Shown here: positions 2,871 through 14,104 of the stretch, piece by piece
How positions within the stretch are numbered: the first letter of the stretch is position 1
How the letters are laid out: each line of letters starts with the position of its first letter
Source of the DNA: a virus
Direction: 5' to 3' (one strand)
Length of the DNA stretch: 64,000 nt
Virus record (IMG/VR): IMGVR_UViG_3300025012_000074
Coordinates: 1 to 64,000 of that record
Notes under the pieces: model-generated
Database searches by the model: none
What the model was told of the DNA's origin: nothing
What the model saw: the letters and a program-made list of their open reading frames with translations, nothing else
Program-made: the position numbers and the translations under genes

Positions 2871-5800
2871 CTAGAACAGTGTCAGTTCGTGTTTCTCGTC
2901 CTCGGCCGCCCGCAGGTTATTTACCGCCTGCTCGAAGTAACTGGGTTTCAGTTCGATGCCGATGAACTTCCGGCCCATCTTGACGGCCACGAATCCCTCG
3001 GAGCCGATGCCGGCGAACGGAGAAAATACCGTATCGCCGGGGTTCGTCCACAGGTGGATGGATCGTTCGACAACGTCAAGTTGCAGAGGGCAATTATGGA
3101 CGATGCAACCTTCGGCCGTGAATGACGAATCTTCCGAAACTCGAAGATCCCACACTTCCTGGTTCCCGGCATCCTCCATTTTTCTGACTTTCTTCCAAGC
3201 ACCGGAATCGTCGATCCATCCCGATTTTTTGTATCCATCGCTGTTTCTAAACGCGAAGATCCATTCGCGTAACATGTGAACCTTACGGCCTTCGATGAAT
3301 CCAATTCTTTCCGGGCGACCTGCGTAAACACTGGCGACAACGCCGCGCGCCCGCTGGGCGACAATCGCCATCCCAAGCAGAAGCGCCCTTGAAACGGACG
3401 ACGCTGTTAAACGGTCATACTTTTTAACATAGTGACCGTCGGCCGAAAGATAACCGGACAGCAACGCCTCCGACTTTTCCTTGCTAAGAGTAACCGCTTC
3501 TCCGGGAAGATGTTTGTTTTCCGCGCCTTCGCCGCACCGCGATAAGACTTCTCGAACTTCTTGACGCAACCCGATAAGATTGATTTGCGTGGCAGTTAAA
3601 ACTTGTGAACATCCCGAGTGGATACCAAGGCGCACCCTGAGTTCATCAACTTCGTTGTGATTGCACGAAATGATGAATTGCCCGAGACCTTTGCCGCGCT
3701 TGCCGCTGGTTCGCCTAGTTCCGCGATGACCGTCGCCGAGCCAACGTCCAACGATCCACCATTCTGTTTCGGTCAGGACGTTCGATTCTTCCGGCGGAAG
3801 TTGCAGGTTGAGATATGAACCGAGAGTATCTTTCGCTTCGGACCACACCGGATCGGACTTTCGCGCCGAATCCTTTTCGTGTGAACCGACCGCTAATTTT
3901 GTCCAAAGTTTGTGGTCGGGAGTCGCCTGAAGATCTGCCACACCTTGAGCGCAAACACGAATCGTATTCGCGATCCCGTTGCATCTTTTCGCAATGACCG
4001 GCATCCACCGGCCGCGATGCGTAAGAACACGATTCCCGTTTTCGACTTTCTGAATTTCGATATATCCGTGCTCGCGGGTAAGAACCAACGAACCGGAAGC
4101 AAGACATATGTGTTTTTCATCCTCCTGCTCGCGCGACCCGTCGCGGCGCAGGACGTTCTGTTGACGGATGTCAAACCACACGGGCGAAGCGTAACGCTGC
4201 CAAACCTGGATGGAATGATCGCGTTCGCTCCGAACATTCTCCGGGCCGTCCTCGCCGACGTATCCTTCGTCGATCGGAAATCGAACATCCGGAGTCGGTC
4301 CGTGAACCGGCTTCGGGAATTCTTCGCCGTCCCACTTCCGGAACACGACGAGATAGTCGGCCATCCCCTGACGGCTTGCCGTCGAATCCTTGCACAGTTG
4401 TTTGTGCAACAGTCCGTGCGACTTCGTGCGCTGCATTTCCGTCACCGGATCTTTCCAGATCGTGACGCGAGAATGATACTGCCAGCCCTCGTCCTCGAAC
4501 GCGCGGACGATCATTCCCGGGAAGTCGATCAGCCCGGCCGCCCCGTCGCGGTTCTTGTAGGCCGGAAGGTCCTTGCAATGGACCGAGCACAACCGGCCGT
4601 TTACGGTCGCGCGGAACAGTTCGCGGATCAGGAACCGGAAGTGTTCGAAAAATTCTTCATGATTCGCGCTATTCCCCATGTCCCTGTTGGAGTCTGAATA
4701 TATGTACAGATTGGAAAATGGCGGAGAATAGGTAGAAAAGTCGAGCGAATTGTCGGGAATCCTGCGGATGACATCCACGCAATCCCCGTTCCACAATTCC
4801 CACCCGTTCCCGCTCGTCTTCGTCGGTTCTGGCGCGTCGATCAGCGCCGTGTTTCTCGTCCCCTGGAATCCTCGCATGGCGGCCACCATCTCCCGTTTCA
4901 TTTTTTCGTGGTCGGCGATTTTGCGCTCGACGACGTTTCGAATCCCGCTTTCCGCTTCCGATTCGATAATCAGAATATCGACCGGCTCCGTTTGACCGAA
5001 TCGCCAAATGCGACGGATCGCCTGATACAGCGCCTCGAACGAATACGACAGGCCGATGAACGCCGCCCGGTGGCAGTTTTGAAAGTTCATTCCGTATCCC
5101 GCGACGGACGGCTTTGTGACGAGGATTCGTTCCTCTCCGTTGGCAAACCGGAACAGGCTTTCGGTTTTCTTCGCGTCCGAATCAGACCCGCGAACGTCCA
5201 CCGCTCCGATGATTTCCGCGTCCAGCGCGTCGGCCTCGTAGTTCGTATCGCACCAAACGAGACATTGCGCGTGATCGGCGGCTACGAATTCAGCCGCGGC
5301 CTTCGCGCGGATGCCGGCCGTGTCGCGCTTCACCTTGTGAATCTCAGTAGCCGAAAGCGTTTCGCCGGTGTGAAACAACATCCCGGGCGGCGGCGGAGCG
5401 TCGACCGTCTTGACGACGATCCGGAGTTCGGGGAGGATATAACCCGTGTCGTCGTAGTCGCCGAAGTCGGAAGGCTTTTCAAGCGCGCAGGCCCAGGACG
5501 CGACCCAATGCCAGAAGTCGCGCGCGCCGTGCCGCTTCAGCCGGTAGTTTCCGGCCTGCATCGAATCGTTGATGAACCACCGGGCGAGCATTTCATTCGA
5601 TCCCATCGACCCGAGAAACTCCGCGTGATTGCCGAGTTCCATGTGATCGTTCGGGGCCGGCGTCGCCGTGCAACAGAGTTTGAACAGCGTGCGCTCAAAC
5701 TGCTCGATGAGCGTGCGCTTCGTGACGCCCATGTAATTCTTGAGGATCGACGACTCGTCGAGGACGACGCCCGAGAATTCGGACGCCGTGAAATGGTCGA

Positions 5801-6155
5801 ACATCTCATAGTTCGTGACGTTTACGCCCGGCCGAACGTCGGATTGTTCGCGGCAAATCGTCACGTCGATTCCGAACTTCTTGCCCTCGCGCTCGGTCTG
5901 CCTGGAGACGGCGAGCGGAGCGAGGATCAGGACCGGCCGGCCGGTGTGCGCGGCGACGACGCGCGACCATTCCAACTGGATAGGGCTCTTACCGAGCCCG
6001 CAGTCGGCGAACACGCACGCGCGCCCACGGCGGAGCGCCCACTTCACGATGTCGCGCTGAAAGTCGAACAGTTTCGGATTAAGTTCCGGGATCTCGGTCA
6101 AGCCCGTCGGTTGATCGACGACCCGTTTCGATTGGATGAATTCTTGATAGTCCAC
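2871..6155 (-). CDS. SNF2-type helicase fused to amino DNA methyltransferase, with an in-frame intein
   Basis: A 1094-residue precursor. Residues 1-430 form an SF2/SNF2-like ATPase: GLGKS (53-57), DESS (133-136), TATP (163-166) and QAIRRIWRFGQ (378-388). Residues from about 450 form a beta-class amino methyltransferase: SPPF motif IV (477-480) precedes the SAM-binding FAGIG motif I (1047-1051). Residues 684-1021 are an intein that splits the conserved HI-CPLQL segment of the methyltransferase. After splicing the product would be 756 residues. Start is GTG at 6155 with AAAGG upstream. The likely role is protective DNA methylation coupled to DNA tracking, or methylation/remodelling during replication; helicase and methyltransferase are often adjacent genes in phages and are fused here. 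SPPF leaves N4-cytosine versus N6-adenine open. Confidence 0.9.
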   Translation of the reverse strand: MDYQEFIQSKRVVDQPTGLTEIPELNPKLFDFQRDIVKWALRRGRACVFADCGLGKSPIQLEWSRVVAAHTGRPVLILAPLAVSRQTEREGKKFGIDVTICREQSDVRPGVNVTNYEMFDHFTASEFSGVVLDESSILKNYMGVTKRTLIEQFERTLFKLCCTATPAPNDHMELGNHAEFLGSMGSNEMLARWFINDSMQAGNYRLKRHGARDFWHWVASWACALEKPSDFGDYDDTGYILPELRIVVKTVDAPPPPGMLFHTGETLSATEIHKVKRDTAGIRAKAAAEFVAADHAQCLVWCDTNYEADALDAEIIGAVDVRGSDSDAKKTESLFRFANGEERILVTKPSVAGYGMNFQNCHRAAFIGLSYSFEALYQAIRRIWRFGQTEPVDILIIESEAESGIRNVVERKIADHEKMKREMVAAMRGFQGTRNTALIDAPEPTKTSGNGWELWNGDCVDVIRRIPDNSLDFSTYSPPFSNLYIYSDSNRDMGNSANHEEFFEHFRFLIRELFRATVNGRLCSVHCKDLPAYKNRDGAAGLIDFPGMIVRAFEDEGWQYHSRVTIWKDPVTEMQRTKSHGLLHKQLCKDSTASRQGMADYLVVFRKWDGEEFPKPVHGPTPDVRFPIDEGYVGEDGPENVRSERDHSIQVWQRYASPVWFDIRQQNVLRRDGSREQEDEKHICLASGSLVLTREHGYIEIQKVENGNRVLTHRGRWMPVIAKRCNGIANTIRVCAQGVADLQATPDHKLWTKLAVGSHEKDSARKSDPVWSEAKDTLGSYLNLQLPPEESNVLTETEWWIVGRWLGDGHRGTRRTSGKRGKGLGQFIISCNHNEVDELRVRLGIHSGCSQVLTATQINLIGLRQEVREVLSRCGEGAENKHLPGEAVTLSKEKSEALLSGYLSADGHYVKKYDRLTASSVSRALLLGMAIVAQRARGVVASVYAGRPERIGFIEGRKVHMLREWIFAFRNSDGYKKSGWIDDSGAWKKVRKMEDAGNQEVWDLRVSEDSSFTAEGCIVHNCPLQLDVVERSIHLWTNPGDTVFSPFAGIGSEGFVAVKMGRKFIGIELKPSYFEQAVNNLRAAEDEKHELTLF
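3093..4106 (-). other. Intein 1 (338 aa, LAGLIDADG endonuclease) in the methyltransferase
   Basis: Encoded in frame inside the helicase-methyltransferase. It begins with Cys (CLASGSLVL, block A), has ATPDHKLW (block B, TxxH), two LAGLIDADG-type helices (VGRWLGDGH at intein residue ~119 and LLSGYLSADGH at ~215) with the acidic residues retained, and ends WDLRVSEDSSF ... GCIVHN before a Cys +1 residue. All splicing residues (Cys1, block B His, His-Asn end, Cys+1) are present, so both splicing and homing look intact. The exact boundaries follow from the restored extein HI-CPLQLD. Confidence 0.93.
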
Positions 6156-9730: not shown

Positions 9731-10548
9731 CGTATTTTTAGGTTTCTAAAAATCAGAACCGGACGAATCCATTGTTTTGTGAACTTTTGCCACGCTTCTA
9801 TTTTGAGTCCCGTCAACGGGCAGCGCATGAGCATCGCAAACGGAACGAACCCGGCATCCCACGTTTCACGTAACCGCGCTTCTGCTTTCTCGATCGTGTC
9901 GCCCTTGTATCCGAGAAAAACGTAGGCGGCCAGCCGGTGAGATGCTTTGGTAAATCCCGCGTTGAAAAGATTCGTCGCCGCGCATCGAAGTTTCTCAACG
10001 TCGCCCGGCCGATCGTTCGCGCAATAAATAATAGCCGGGTGGATCTTTCGCAACTCGGTCGCTATTTCCGGCGTAATCCGGCTGGCCTCGAGCCCCCCCG
10101 TGAATCTTACTTTTCCATTCGGACGGCCGCGCAACATCGCAAACACGCTGCTGATGTGTTCGTGCGAACACTGCAATAAATTTGAATCCAGGACGTTCGA
10201 ACCCGGAATAATCGGAAGTTCTCGAATCGCACCCTCGCGTTTGTGGACTTGGCAATACCAACATCGATTATTGCATCCTCGCGATGTGATTGTGTAACCG
10301 TCGGCGATGTATCGACCAGGAATGAAATTGCCGCCGCGATCACCGCACGCCGGACCGCCGATCGTAGTCGTAGCGACATCGCGCCAAGCACGCGCTAATT
10401 GTTCGGCGCGCGGAATATCCCATGTGAACGTCACGCTGACGTGGATCTCGTCCGCCTCGTCGAGCATGTCAGGTTCGACGTTCACGCGAACGAGTGAATC
10501 GGTAGGTGTCGCGGACGTCCGTCGCGGAAAAACTCGGATGATTTTCAT
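9727..10548 (-). CDS. Radical SAM protein
   Basis: A 273-residue protein with the cluster motif SRGCNNRCWYCQVHKREG (CxxxCxxC) near residue 90, which binds the 4Fe-4S cluster that cleaves S-adenosylmethionine, and a FTGGLEA segment further on. The rest resembles the partial TIM barrel of the family (AAYVFLGYKGDTIEKAEARL). No substrate can be deduced; phage radical SAM proteins are often involved in nucleotide or RNA modification. ATGA overlap with the helicase upstream. Confidence 0.8.
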   Translation of the reverse strand: MKIIRVFPRRTSATPTDSLVRVNVEPDMLDEADEIHVSVTFTWDIPRAEQLARAWRDVATTTIGGPACGDRGGNFIPGRYIADGYTITSRGCNNRCWYCQVHKREGAIRELPIIPGSNVLDSNLLQCSHEHISSVFAMLRGRPNGKVRFTGGLEASRITPEIATELRKIHPAIIYCANDRPGDVEKLRCAATNLFNAGFTKASHRLAAYVFLGYKGDTIEKAEARLRETWDAGFVPFAMLMRCPLTGLKIEAWQKFTKQWIRPVLIFRNLKIR

Positions 10549-12965
10549 AACATCGGTTCCGTCATTTCCTCATAAACTTTATCCCGCGACCGCGCGGACG
10601 CGCAGAGCACGCCGACCTTCGAGTCGCGGTAGTCGTAGACGCGGGCCGCTTCCTTGCCCGGCGCAGGACGTAGCACGCGGCCGAGATACTGCAACAGCCG
10701 CCCGTCGAACTTGATCGGTGTGGCAAGAAACAGCGTCGACAGCCCGGCGCAATCGAACCCCTCGCCGATCAACTGGCCGGTCGCGATCACAACGCGGGCC
10801 GCGCCGGACGCCGCCCGGCCGACGACCGCCAGCCGTTCGCGCTTGCCGAGCGCGCCGGTCAGCACGTCCGCCCAGATTCGGCGCTCGGCAAACAGGCCGG
10901 CCAGCGTATCGCAGTGTTCCTTCCGGTCGGACAGGATCAGGCAGATCCCCGCGCTGGCTTCCAGTTCCTCGCACACGTCGGCGACGATCAGTTTGTTTCG
11001 CTGTTCGTCTTCCGTCAGTTCGCCGATCATTCGCGCGTAATTCGGTTGCCAGCCGGTTTCGCGCCGGACGATTTCCGCCCGCAGGATGTCGCCGTTCGAT
11101 TCCAATTCGCCCTTGTCGATCGAATGAACCAGGTCGCCGAGGTGCCAGAAGATGAGTTTCGTTTGGCCGTCCCGCCGCCAGGGCGTCGCCGACAGACCGA
11201 GCGAATACCAGGCGTCGAACTTGGAAACGGCTTCTGTGAACGTGCGGGAAGGGCAACGGTGGCAATTGTGAACCAGCACGCCGCCGGCAAAATAGTTACC
11301 GGTTTCAGTTTCTAAATTGAAGACAGGACCGACCGGACACACGTCCGAAGATCGTTCAGTATCTGGCGGTTTGTAAACCTTAACACTTTCCACCCTAACT
11401 TTTGTAAGTATTCCGTTTTCTTTGAATCCAGAATTCGTCGTTTCCCATTGTGGCTTTGTCCGTCTACTTCTATACCGATCATTAATTTTGTATTTGCTAT
11501 GTCGATTTTGTAGCACGTCGGCAAATTCTGCTCCAAAAGAAATTCTCTCCGGCTTCCTTTCTGAAGATGACTCGCCGTTTTTATCGGAACTTCCGTTCGC
11601 CATTTCAAGGCATCGGCTAAAGTCTTTTGAGCGATAGGAACCGGCCGGCCATTTCCGCCTCGATTCTTCGTGACGACAGATAATGTTCCGTTTTTCGTTT
11701 TCGTGTCCATCATCTTTGCGATCCATTTTGGATTTTTCATTGGGTTGTTTAATATCTTGTTGATGCGACCTTGCGTTTGATTGTATTTTGCTAGTGACAT
11801 TCCTGAAACGACATGGCCACGACGCACTATTTCTTTCGTGCATTCTTCCGAGCACGTAGCACGCCCTGATTTTGCTTGCGTCAAGGAACTTCTCCAATGA
11901 TTTCCGTCTTTGCATTCCACCTGTTTTCCGCATGCTCGGCACGGAACAATTACAATCTTCATTCTCGATTGCATTCTTGCGCGTCGGCATGGCTTGCAGA
12001 AAAGCCCGGTATCGTTTTTTCCCGTTCCGCATTCTTTGCAATTTTTTCTTATCATGAATCCTCCAAGCATAATCGCCAATTTTAATTTCGTTTGCCGGTT
12101 TATATTCATTGTCGATATAAAACGGATGATTAGCAGTGCATATCACATGTTCGCCGTTTTCAAAATCAATACGATATAGATCGTTTGATTGATTATGAAA
12201 TTCATGTAATACTTTAGATTCGACAACTTGTTTACTATCATGATTATAGCCTAATACAATGTCGCCGGTCTTAATATCTTCAATATTTTTTTGTCCATCA
12301 ACCGTATCTATTTTCGTTTCGGAGGCGAAACACTCGTCAGTTATGACGAACCCCACCCGCTCACGCACGGCCGCCGCGTTCTTGTAAAGCGAATTGACGA
12401 TCGCGACGGTAATCCGTTCCCCGATCTTGTTTTTCCCGCCGCCGATGATCCCGACTTCGGGCGCGGGGATCGCCAGGAACCTGCCGATTCGTTCAATCCA
12501 CTGGTTCAGCAATTCTTTATTATGGACGATCACGAGCGTCGGCTGGCGACGAGCCGCGACCGCAGCCAGGGCCATGACGGTCTTCCCCGATCCGGTAGCC
12601 GCGTTGAGCACGCCGAAGTCTTTCTTAAGCACGTCATCAACCGCCGCTCGCTGGATCGGCCGGACAGCGCCGGCGAACTGAAAATCAACCTCGGGAAGTT
12701 TGCGGCGACGATCATCCAGCGTGAATGCCAGACCGGCCGCTCGGGCCGTTCGGATCGCTTCGGCGATGAACCCGCGCGGAACGATCAGGCCGAATTCCGT
12801 TTCCGAGTATCCGACGATGTTCCGCGGCACGTTCCAGTTCGAGCGGCCGGCCTTTTCGTTGACCGTGAATTGCAGGTTAGGAAACGTCAGCGCGGCTTTC
12901 AGGCCGGCCAGGAAATCAGGCGGGGCGGATTCGATCGACAGGCAGGATGAGAGGCGGAAGATCAT
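10545..12965 (-). CDS. DECH-box SF2 helicase with an intein in motif II
   Basis: I place the start at ATG 12965, which overlaps the stop of the PLD-like gene; the frame stays open to 13043. The 806-residue precursor has Walker A (ATGSGKT, ~residue 123), motif II split as DE (210-211) plus CH (568-569), SATPWRR (~592) and QYLGRVLRP (~758), typical of XPB/UvsW-like SF2 helicases. Residues 212-567 are an intein. The spliced enzyme would be 450 residues. Because the intein splits the catalytic DECH box, the helicase can be active only after splicing. A likely role is replication or recombination fork processing. It forms an operon with the radical SAM gene. Confidence 0.9.
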   Translation of the reverse strand: MIFRLSSCLSIESAPPDFLAGLKAALTFPNLQFTVNEKAGRSNWNVPRNIVGYSETEFGLIVPRGFIAEAIRTARAAGLAFTLDDRRRKLPEVDFQFAGAVRPIQRAAVDDVLKKDFGVLNAATGSGKTVMALAAVAARRQPTLVIVHNKELLNQWIERIGRFLAIPAPEVGIIGGGKNKIGERITVAIVNSLYKNAAAVRERVGFVITDECFASETKIDTVDGQKNIEDIKTGDIVLGYNHDSKQVVESKVLHEFHNQSNDLYRIDFENGEHVICTANHPFYIDNEYKPANEIKIGDYAWRIHDKKKLQRMRNGKKRYRAFLQAMPTRKNAIENEDCNCSVPSMRKTGGMQRRKSLEKFLDASKIRACYVLGRMHERNSASWPCRFRNVTSKIQSNARSHQQDIKQPNEKSKMDRKDDGHENEKRNIICRHEESRRKWPAGSYRSKDFSRCLEMANGSSDKNGESSSERKPERISFGAEFADVLQNRHSKYKINDRYRSRRTKPQWETTNSGFKENGILTKVRVESVKVYKPPDTERSSDVCPVGPVFNLETETGNYFAGGVLVHNCHRCPSRTFTEAVSKFDAWYSLGLSATPWRRDGQTKLIFWHLGDLVHSIDKGELESNGDILRAEIVRRETGWQPNYARMIGELTEDEQRNKLIVADVCEELEASAGICLILSDRKEHCDTLAGLFAERRIWADVLTGALGKRERLAVVGRAASGAARVVIATGQLIGEGFDCAGLSTLFLATPIKFDGRLLQYLGRVLRPAPGKEAARVYDYRDSKVGVLCASARSRDKVYEEMTEPML
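11265..12332 (-). other. Intein 2 (356 aa) splitting the helicase DECH box, with a nested out-of-frame gene
   Basis: Block A starts with Cys (CFASETKIDTVDG), block B is ICTANHPFYI, and the end reads VFNLETETGNYFAGGVLVHN before Cys+1. These splicing motifs are intact. The region between block B and block F, where an in-frame endonuclease usually sits, is in this frame a ~220-residue Lys/Arg/Ser/Asn-rich stretch with no recognisable domain. In another frame the same DNA encodes an endonuclease (11312-12055). The region is visibly more AT-rich than its surroundings, as expected for a recent insertion. Confidence 0.92.
11312..12055 (-). CDS. Vsr/DUF559-like homing endonuclease nested out of frame inside intein 2
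   Basis: A 247-residue protein read in a frame different from the intein. ATG 12055 is preceded by TTGGAGGATTC, an excellent ribosome binding site; an earlier in-frame ATG lies at 12109. N-terminus: zinc-finger-like CKEC ... CKPC and CRAC ... CSEEC pairs. Middle: NNPMKNPKWIAKM, resembling DNA-binding modules of homing enzymes. C-terminus: CYKIDIANTKLMIGIEVDG, QSH, then DSKKTEYLQKLGWKVLRF, matching the PD-(D/E)xK-like DUF559/Vsr fold. It starts after intein block B and stops inside block F. A Vsr-like family is known beside split inteins; here the host frame is uninterrupted. Confidence 0.85.
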   Translation of the reverse strand: MIRKNCKECGTGKNDTGLFCKPCRRARMQSRMKIVIVPCRACGKQVECKDGNHWRSSLTQAKSGRATCSEECTKEIVRRGHVVSGMSLAKYNQTQGRINKILNNPMKNPKWIAKMMDTKTKNGTLSVVTKNRGGNGRPVPIAQKTLADALKWRTEVPIKTASHLQKGSRREFLLEQNLPTCYKIDIANTKLMIGIEVDGQSHNGKRRILDSKKTEYLQKLGWKVLRFTNRQILNDLRTCVRSVLSSI

Positions 12966-13693
12966 GACCCGATCCGCCACTCGGGCGCGCACCATTCCGA
13001 TTCCCAATCCAGCGGTTCGGACAGGGAAATGATCTTTTGCCATTCGTCGAAGTAGCGTTTAGCAATCAGCGGATCGTGCATGACCACCGCGTTCTCAAAC
13101 GAGTTTGTAGAATTTTTCGTGAAGTTGAATGAGCCGGTCCAGACCGAATTTGGCTTCATCCCATCATATCCATGTTGGGGTTTCCACGATTTTCCAAACA
13201 CTAAAAATTTATTGTGCATTCTTGGGAACGCCGGAAGTTTATTATAATTATTGTTTCCAACGCATCGCATTGGATCTATTGTGTTATCTCCGCACATACT
13301 TAATTTTCTCACTAATTCACCCATAGCATAACGAGTAAAATTAGTTTTAATATTATTATATTTTGTCTTTAATTCGTCGCGATATCCGACAGACGCGCTC
13401 ATATCCGGCCGCAAAAAGTCTTCTTTTTGAACGACGATTGATACGCCGAATTTCACGGACGCCAGCGCGTCAAGGATCTTCGGGCTCGTCAGCCAGGCAA
13501 CGCACCCGACGACAGACTCGGCCGCTTCGATGTGGCGGCATACCACGTCCTCAAGATTTTCAAAATAGAGTTCTACTTTTGGGTTGTATCGCGTCGAATT
13601 CCTATCAACGTCGTTTGCGAATTCTGTATATTCCGATCCGAGAACTTTGTTTCCGATCCGTTTCAAATCCTTCGGCAAACTTTTGTCGTTCAT
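12962..13693 (-). CDS. Phospholipase D-like protein (possible nuclease)
   Basis: I choose ATG 13693 as start (243 residues) because the region upstream is the AAACTTT repeat array; the frame is open to 13744. The C-terminal part has RMHNKFLVFGKSW ... NSVWTGSFNFTKNSTNSFENAVV, the HxK and SxNFT pattern of PLD-family phosphodiesterases with one catalytic motif, so it would dimerise. The N-terminal part has ESVVGCVAWLTSPKILDAL, also typical of these proteins. It may be a DNA nuclease; lipid activity is less likely given its neighbours. ATGA overlap with the helicase. Confidence 0.75.
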   Translation of the reverse strand: MNDKSLPKDLKRIGNKVLGSEYTEFANDVDRNSTRYNPKVELYFENLEDVVCRHIEAAESVVGCVAWLTSPKILDALASVKFGVSIVVQKEDFLRPDMSASVGYRDELKTKYNNIKTNFTRYAMGELVRKLSMCGDNTIDPMRCVGNNNYNKLPAFPRMHNKFLVFGKSWKPQHGYDGMKPNSVWTGSFNFTKNSTNSFENAVVMHDPLIAKRYFDEWQKIISLSEPLDWESEWCAPEWRIGS

Positions 13694-13717
13694 TTTTACG
13701 TCCCCATTTCTTCGTCT

Positions 13718-13891
13718 AAAACTTTCGCAGTGAAGTTTCCGCACCGCCGAAACTTTCCGAAACCGTCTAAAACTTTTTCAAAAACTTTATAAATCAACTC
13801 AAAACTTTTTCGAACCTTTTTGAATCGTCCGAAACTTTTTCAAAACTTTTGGAAAAGTTTTCAAAAGTTTTCGGAAACTTTGTCAAACTTT
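13718..13891. repeat. AAACTTT repeat array
   Basis: Nine direct copies of AAACTTT (for example 13719-13725 and 13885-13891) and two inverted copies (AAAAGTTTTC) in 174 bp, at uneven spacing. More copies occur just across the neighbouring gene boundary near 14139 and 14189. The stretch is AT-rich in a GC-rich genome and lies between the replication gene and the helicase operon. It may be a set of binding sites (iteron-like) at an origin; this is inference. Confidence 0.7.
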
Positions 13892-13925
13892 CTACTTCCA
13901 GTTGACAACCGATGTTGATAAAGGG

Positions 13926-14104
13926 GGTTACGTCGGTTACGTCGCGTGGGTCCCTTACACTTTTCCCAGTTTCGTCGAAAGCCCCTATAGATAGAAAATT
14001 AATGTTCTTTCTTTCTTTCTTATATAAGGAGCGCGTGCGCGCGCGCGCACACACACGCGCAGGAGGAACGTGTAGGCTACCCACGCGACGTAACCGACGA
14101 AACC
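13926..14104. repeat. 26-bp inverted repeat enclosing Z-DNA-prone and polypyrimidine tracts
   Basis: Arms 13926-13951 and 14079-14104 match in 25 of 26 positions as inverted copies. Each arm carries CGTCGGTTACGTCGCG. The 127-bp interior holds TTCT repeats (14005-14020), TATATAAGGA and a 30-bp strictly alternating purine-pyrimidine tract (14031-14060). No convincing gene is present in 13694-14127. Such features suit a replication origin or a regulatory cruciform. Confidence 0.75.

Follow-up and report, generated by a model that had tools for sequence, protein, structure and literature searches.

The DNA analysed here (the window) comprises 64,000 nucleotides of a 71,105-base IMG/VR virus record whose terminase, portal, head protease and tape-measure genes identify its source as a tailed phage. 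All genes and gene parts given below by window position lie on the minus strand. The host gene (10545-13043) encodes an 832-residue SF2 DNA helicase precursor with an intein, as indicated by Pfam matches to ResIII (5.3e-20), Helicase_C and Intein_splicing and by a PHROG DNA helicase match (2.7e-55). Its N-extein, delimited from the sequence at 12333-13043, carries Walker A (AATGSGKT, 12579-12602) and ends in Walker B (...ITDE, 12333-12344), with Walker A and the DE of Walker B conserved in 56 hosts. The C-extein (10545-11264) contributes further helicase motifs (SATPW...) and the Helicase_C domain. Neither close relatives nor an empty, intein-free allele of this particular helicase were found in IMG/VR, and its alignments with other phage helicases reach only ~25%. 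A PLD-like nuclease-family ORF (12962-13744) overlaps the helicase ORF start by ~80 bases. Further along, a non-coding-looking stretch at 13730-13900 holds many near-repeats of GAAACTTTTTCAAAACTTT, followed by a GCGCGCACACACACGCG tract near 14040; repeats and tract are possibly iterons or an origin. The same phage carries another intein in a 1094-residue ORF (2871-6155) encoding an SNF2/Helicase_C and N6_N4 methyltransferase fusion. There, a LAGLIDADG-like domain lies in frame, which is the conventional arrangement.

The helicase intein (11265-12332, residues 238-593, 356 aa) is inserted at Walker B, running from DE|C to HN|C. Splicing block A (CFASETK, 12300-12332) provides Cys1 and block B (CTANHPF, 12114-12146) the catalytic His of a TxxH motif, both invariant in 73 inteins. 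Block F (VFNLETETGNYFAGG, 11280-11324) is followed by block G with the Cys+1 (VLVHN|C, 11262-11279); the terminal Asn is likewise invariant in the 73 inteins, and the preceding His and the Cys+1 are present in at least 90%. Cys1, TxxH, the C-terminal His-Asn, a +1 residue of the Cys/Ser/Thr type, a Hint fold and an uninterrupted host ORF are thus all found together, as in cis-splicing Hint inteins. Pfam PT-HINT scored above its cut-off for the intein and Intein_splicing just under it (34.9 vs 35.8 bits). In the AlphaFold2 model the Hint domain is confident (pLDDT 90-98 for the first 100 residues, mostly 94-97 for the C-terminal strands) and its parts are separated by a low-confidence stretch of ~190 residues. 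Foldseek matches of the model comprised bacterial intein-like proteins and the gp41-1, DnaB, RecA and NrdJ-1 inteins. By motifs and modeled fold the element is a Hint intein, and splicing activity is predicted.

Between blocks B and F, the same DNA contains a second gene in the +1 frame of the intein (11312-12055, 247 residues plus stop). Its stop codon (11312-11314) falls inside block F, so that the first residues of this block are overlapped by the 3' end of the nested gene. A Shine-Dalgarno sequence, GGAGG (12060-12064), lies 4 nt before the ATG at 12055; the last in-frame stop upstream is at 12143-12145 and the frame is open for 29 codons before the ATG. From its N-terminus, the product contains a zinc-finger-like CxxC pair (CKEC...CKPC, 11987-12040), a second CxxC-type pair whose last Cys is conserved (CRAC...CSEEC, 11840-11941), an RGGNG family motif (11642-11662, G134 and G136 invariant) and a catalytic DUF559/EDxHD core (11369-11512) with D185, E196, D198, H202 and D210. 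Of these, D185, H202 and D210 do not vary among 73 sequences, and E196 and D198 are conserved in at least 90%. Pfam DUF559 matches the product above its cut-off (E = 2.6e-11). The structural model (mean pLDDT 85.9) finds its best Foldseek match in the catalytic domain of I-Bth0305I (E = 3.5e-3, probability 1.00), followed by 3hrl, so that both sequence and fold of the catalytic domain place the protein among EDxHD/Vsr-like nucleases. An HNH identity was considered and rejected, as only the zinc-pair region matches an HNH PHROG. Based on sequence and model, we regard the nested product as a DUF559/EDxHD homing-endonuclease-type protein, with cleavage and homing as predicted activities. An earlier note, made from the letters of the window alone, had proposed an intein with intact blocks A, B, F and G in the helicase frame and an out-of-frame Vsr/DUF559-like endonuclease with its own GGAGG and ATG. 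The coordinates it gave for both elements proved exact, all four blocks were located in the helicase ORF, and the family assignment is borne out by the DUF559 profile and by structure predictions for both frames, which gave a Hint fold, an I-Bth0305I-like fold and a low-confidence linker.

We searched for relatives of this arrangement. Using tblastn against GenBank phages, the endonuclease was detected in 42 records at ~33-35% identity, and most of the rows listed lay under a helicase-annotated gene. In all eight GenBank records that were examined, a single CDS spans the whole stretch, the endonuclease is unannotated and its frame is +1 relative to an intact intein. This layout and offset occur in isolated phages, among them Vibrio K391, CP-T1, Pseudomonas MR14 and Corynebacterium phi673. 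Further loci were collected from IMG/VR and genome contigs with 80 loci retained per scan, a sampling that favours close relatives of the window endonuclease and its kin. The resulting 254 loci were classified with separate HMMs for the endonuclease, N-intein and C-intein, and dereplication at 90% left 139 non-redundant loci with a close endonuclease. Within this sample of 80 loci per scan, 124 loci (the window included) have the endonuclease nested in an uninterrupted intein ORF at one frame offset; the others are nested but truncated by contig ends (4), fractured (7) or free-standing (4). An in-frame endonuclease or a different offset was found in none of the 139. Intein-frame stops are absent from 128 of the 139 loci, number one in a single locus (L243) and at least nine in ten. 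The proposed homing-endonuclease-type gene lying out of frame within an intact intein is therefore supported by the window itself and by the 124 nested loci, and the search for the same insertion in relatives also brought up fractured, free-standing and empty states. Judging from these sequences, most of the family is overprinted, and this form is not a rare intermediate. Overprinted inteins were also seen on bacterial-genome contigs from many phyla (L099-L122 and L133; Chloroflexota, Planctomycetota, Cyanobacteriota, Bacillota and others). Two free-standing endonucleases (L003:1531-2148 and L006:3788-4402) sit directly upstream of an intein-free helicase gene with a slight overlap.

To evaluate how the two frames are maintained, synonymous codons were reassigned inside each endonuclease gene, keeping protein and codon usage. 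Shuffling predicted 1,051 intein-frame stops in the 124 nested genes and none was observed, a zero that is partly definitional because one intein ORF is part of the nested call. The evidence for openness is that nearly all close relatives fall into the nested class and that controls behave differently: free-standing DUF559 genes had 563 stops against a prediction of 580, and in the third frame of nested genes 2,028 stops occurred where 1,845 were predicted. For the window gene, 20,000 shuffles gave a mean of 9.4 intein-frame stops and not a single stop-free sequence. The same discipline is visible at individual codons. Third-position T before AA, AG or GA occurs at 0 of 1,689 sites in nested genes vs 61% T at other C/T sites, and in nested genes below 35% GC at 0 of 143 vs 88%. 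This bias is absent from free-standing genes, where 563 of 801 such sites carry T.

Protein-level selection was estimated from 18 pairwise dN/dS comparisons, some of which share sequences. Values were 0.02-0.5 for the endonuclease frame (four comparisons saturated) and 0.06-0.47 for the splicing blocks, against ~1.0-2.7 for the intein-frame linker, the last being inflated by the overlap. Low values for endonuclease and splicing blocks next to a linker value of about 1 or more point to two functional proteins, the endonuclease and the splicing domain, and to a linker merely kept open. In the window, this dual-coded stretch (11325-12055) would correspond to a stop-free, probably disordered linker between the splicing halves, whose amino acids appear unconserved with only openness kept. 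A conserved linker protein was rejected, since in the intein frame dN/dS reaches or exceeds about 1 and the model has low confidence. The earlier note had argued that long openness of a second frame by chance is improbable, which the shuffles confirm, and that both frames seem selected. The latter holds for the endonuclease frame and for the splicing blocks; it does not extend to the linker over the endonuclease, which is open but not conserved in amino acids.

The observed offset has a property that follows from the genetic code. An intein-frame stop requires an endonuclease codon NNT followed by AAN, AGN or GAN, and since every NNT has the synonym NNC, stops can be removed at no change to the endonuclease protein. 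In the other offset, ATG followed by A creates TGA, which is not removable synonymously, and nested genes contain a mean of 2.8 such Met positions. A single origin may by itself also explain the shared offset and is compatible with the code-based explanation.

The hosts of the element are P-loop ATPases, comprising helicases of the SF2 and SNF2 types as well as clamp-loader-type AAA+ proteins. Of 91 tabulated loci, 84 have the insertion at DE|C or EE|C, and DE|C is conserved in 56 hosts. The C-exteins share 17% identity in the mean pairwise comparison, the endonucleases 40% and the splicing domains 38%. Their three distance matrices correlate with one another at Spearman 0.43-0.47, a level reached in none of 500 permutations, which is consistent with a composite element whose parts are inherited, and occasionally transferred, together. 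The window endonuclease (11312-12055) groups with L001:3-434 (51% identity), which lies in a clamp-loader-type gene, the window host being a helicase; this grouping hints at transfer between different ATPase genes. Vibrio phages whose helicases are nearly identical differ at one shared codon, which is unoccupied in 141O35-1, 1.024.O, 234P10 and PS17B.1 and carries the overprinted intein in K391, 1.088.O and 1.194.O. A divergent mini-intein of ~150 residues without endonuclease is found at this codon in K389 (L257), K459 (L258), 268E42.1 (L261) and K453 (L262). Derivation of the mini-intein by simple deletion from the overprinted intein was rejected, as the alignment indicates a divergent allele and no clean deletion. 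Empty, mini-intein and overprinted alleles at one site are the pattern that would be expected of a homing element.

The anatomy, conservation, selection pattern and allele polymorphism observed here lead us to propose an overprinted homing intein, in which one mRNA region read in two frames would yield both a spliced helicase and a separate homing endonuclease. We assign this reading, based on sequence comparison and structural models, a probability of roughly 85%. Ribosomes in the helicase frame would produce the full precursor, from which the Hint domain (blocks A/B and F/G) would excise the insert including its long disordered linker and join the helicase at Walker B. The separate EDxHD/DUF559 endonuclease would come from other ribosomes, which would initiate at the internal GGAGG-ATG of the +1 frame. 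This protein would cleave alleles lacking the intein close to the DE|C codons, and repair would copy in the whole element. Over the endonuclease, the intein frame would be selected solely for the absence of stops. A frameshift in the endonuclease would also break the host ATPase, and this putative frame lock would slow endonuclease loss. Lapses in the wobble discipline would break the host ORF and could leave a split intein in a fractured gene.

Other explanations of the locus were weighed against this proposal. The window rests on a metagenomic record, and in principle the second frame could be open by chance or an assembly indel could have misplaced the endonuclease frame. Isolated phages K391, CP-T1, MR14 and phi673 share layout and offset, which refutes an assembly artefact, and the lack of any stop-free window shuffle, the wobble data and the 124 non-redundant relatives refute chance openness; we consider either practically negligible. 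Retention of the insert in a non-splicing intein, as proposed for the ShiLan domain of phage methylases, is very improbable, as no splicing residue is missing, these residues are subject to purifying selection and the retained insert would break Walker B, an essential ATPase motif. Somewhat less remote, but still improbable, is expression of the endonuclease by +1 ribosomal frameshifting from the precursor, giving a fusion of N-extein, intein-N and endonuclease without internal initiation. The 29 open codons upstream of the window ATG would allow it, and about one fifth of nested genes have no 4-nt Shine-Dalgarno match at any candidate start. Against this, 98 of the 124 nested genes (79%) have a match of at least 4 nt ahead of their best candidate start, vs 39% of matched control starts; for matches of at least 5 nt the figures are 34% vs 6%. 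Further, in five relatives (L013, L096, L188, L079 and L189) only 0-1 codons separate an upstream in-frame stop from the start, which gives a shift hardly any space.

The relation of overprinted inteins to fractured genes was addressed with a quick IQ-TREE phylogeny using DUF559 outgroups. The clade is mostly overprinted, and fractured rows appear within it at two or more separate positions; in each of the seven fractured loci, the offset of both intein halves to the endonuclease is that of the overprinted form. One of these rows, L243, joins two overprinted rows in a starred group. Apart from a single TAG (L243:3240), the intein in its clamp-loader gene is open; the stop arises where the endonuclease codons AAT and AGA meet, and AAC in place of AAT would leave the endonuclease protein unchanged. 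The TAG may mark a one-step natural intermediate or a pseudogene, or be a sequencing error. We infer that overprinted inteins can become fractured genes when wobble discipline lapses, a direction that is tentative given weakly supported deep branches. The reverse course, from fractured genes with split inteins to the overprinted form by fusion and loss of the stops, draws on this weak support and on the long branch of the fractured clade; we consider it unlikely in view of the nested positions of the fractured rows, the offset retained in both halves and the lone stop of L243. The earlier note had called the overprinted form an intermediate or alternative state. The idea of an intermediate is partly supported by the fractured rows inside the overprinted clade and by L243, one stop from intact, but the overprinted form is the usual one in the family.

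Several known systems share parts of this arrangement. Full-length inteins such as PI-SceI contain an in-frame LAGLIDADG or HNH endonuclease domain as part of the intein polypeptide. The position between blocks B and F is the same here, but the window endonuclease is a separate product in the +1 frame, and none of the 139 relatives has it in frame. Dassa et al. reportedly described in 2009 fractured genes with split inteins and a Vsr-like homing endonuclease family, where the host ORF is broken and splicing occurs in trans. An intein and a related endonuclease family are common to both, and L095, L114, L180 and L182-L184 resemble that arrangement; host ORF and intein of the window are continuous, unlike in the seven fractured relatives. 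Same-strand overprinted viral genes also use both frames, but here one frame is selected for its protein and the other, along most of its extent, just for stop absence. I-Bth0305I, the best structural match of the nested protein, is a phage group I homing endonuclease (PMC3943268) and is not described as an intein-nested gene. The closest likeness is the ShiLan domain, a hidden HNH endonuclease in phage methylases (Arsenault, Gosselin, Gogarten 2025, PMC11855218). ShiLan and its Pacc40 relative are out-of-frame HNH-type nucleases in a stop-free phage insertion without splicing domains, and for ShiLan the ribosome binding site is undetectable and the host is a non-essential methylase (PMC11855218). 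Both are phage insertions without stops in the host frame that have their endonuclease in another frame and are annotated only as the host gene. The element described here differs in its intact Hint intein with a full splicing domain, its DUF559/EDxHD nuclease, its SD-ATG start and its location at Walker B sites of ATPases. Within the literature searched, ShiLan and the Pacc40 relative are the only published out-of-frame endonucleases in a stop-free phage insertion, and no description of an intact intein with an overprinted endonuclease was found, most of the subscription literature lying outside this search. What is new is the arrangement, which is widespread and informative about mechanism; its parts are known.

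In conclusion, the overprinted intein looks like a stable and apparently undescribed way for a selfish gene to inhabit an essential gene. Here a homing endonuclease is housed in an intein in a manner that differs both from the in-frame domain and from the gene placed between split halves; more than 120 distinct examples are known from this analysis, and they include GenBank phages annotated as helicase only. We see about even odds for the broader picture of a large, old phage-intein lineage that keeps its overprinted endonuclease at the cost-free offset, where the frame lock would prevent decay and failure of the lock by a synonymous wobble change would give rise to fractured genes and split inteins. 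The arrangement is relevant to the origin of both, as endonuclease-synonymous changes suffice to keep or break the host gene. The element is also an unusually clean same-strand overlap, one frame being selected for its protein and the other almost purely for being stop-free. It may further be a source of new Walker B-site inteins and EDxHD nucleases.
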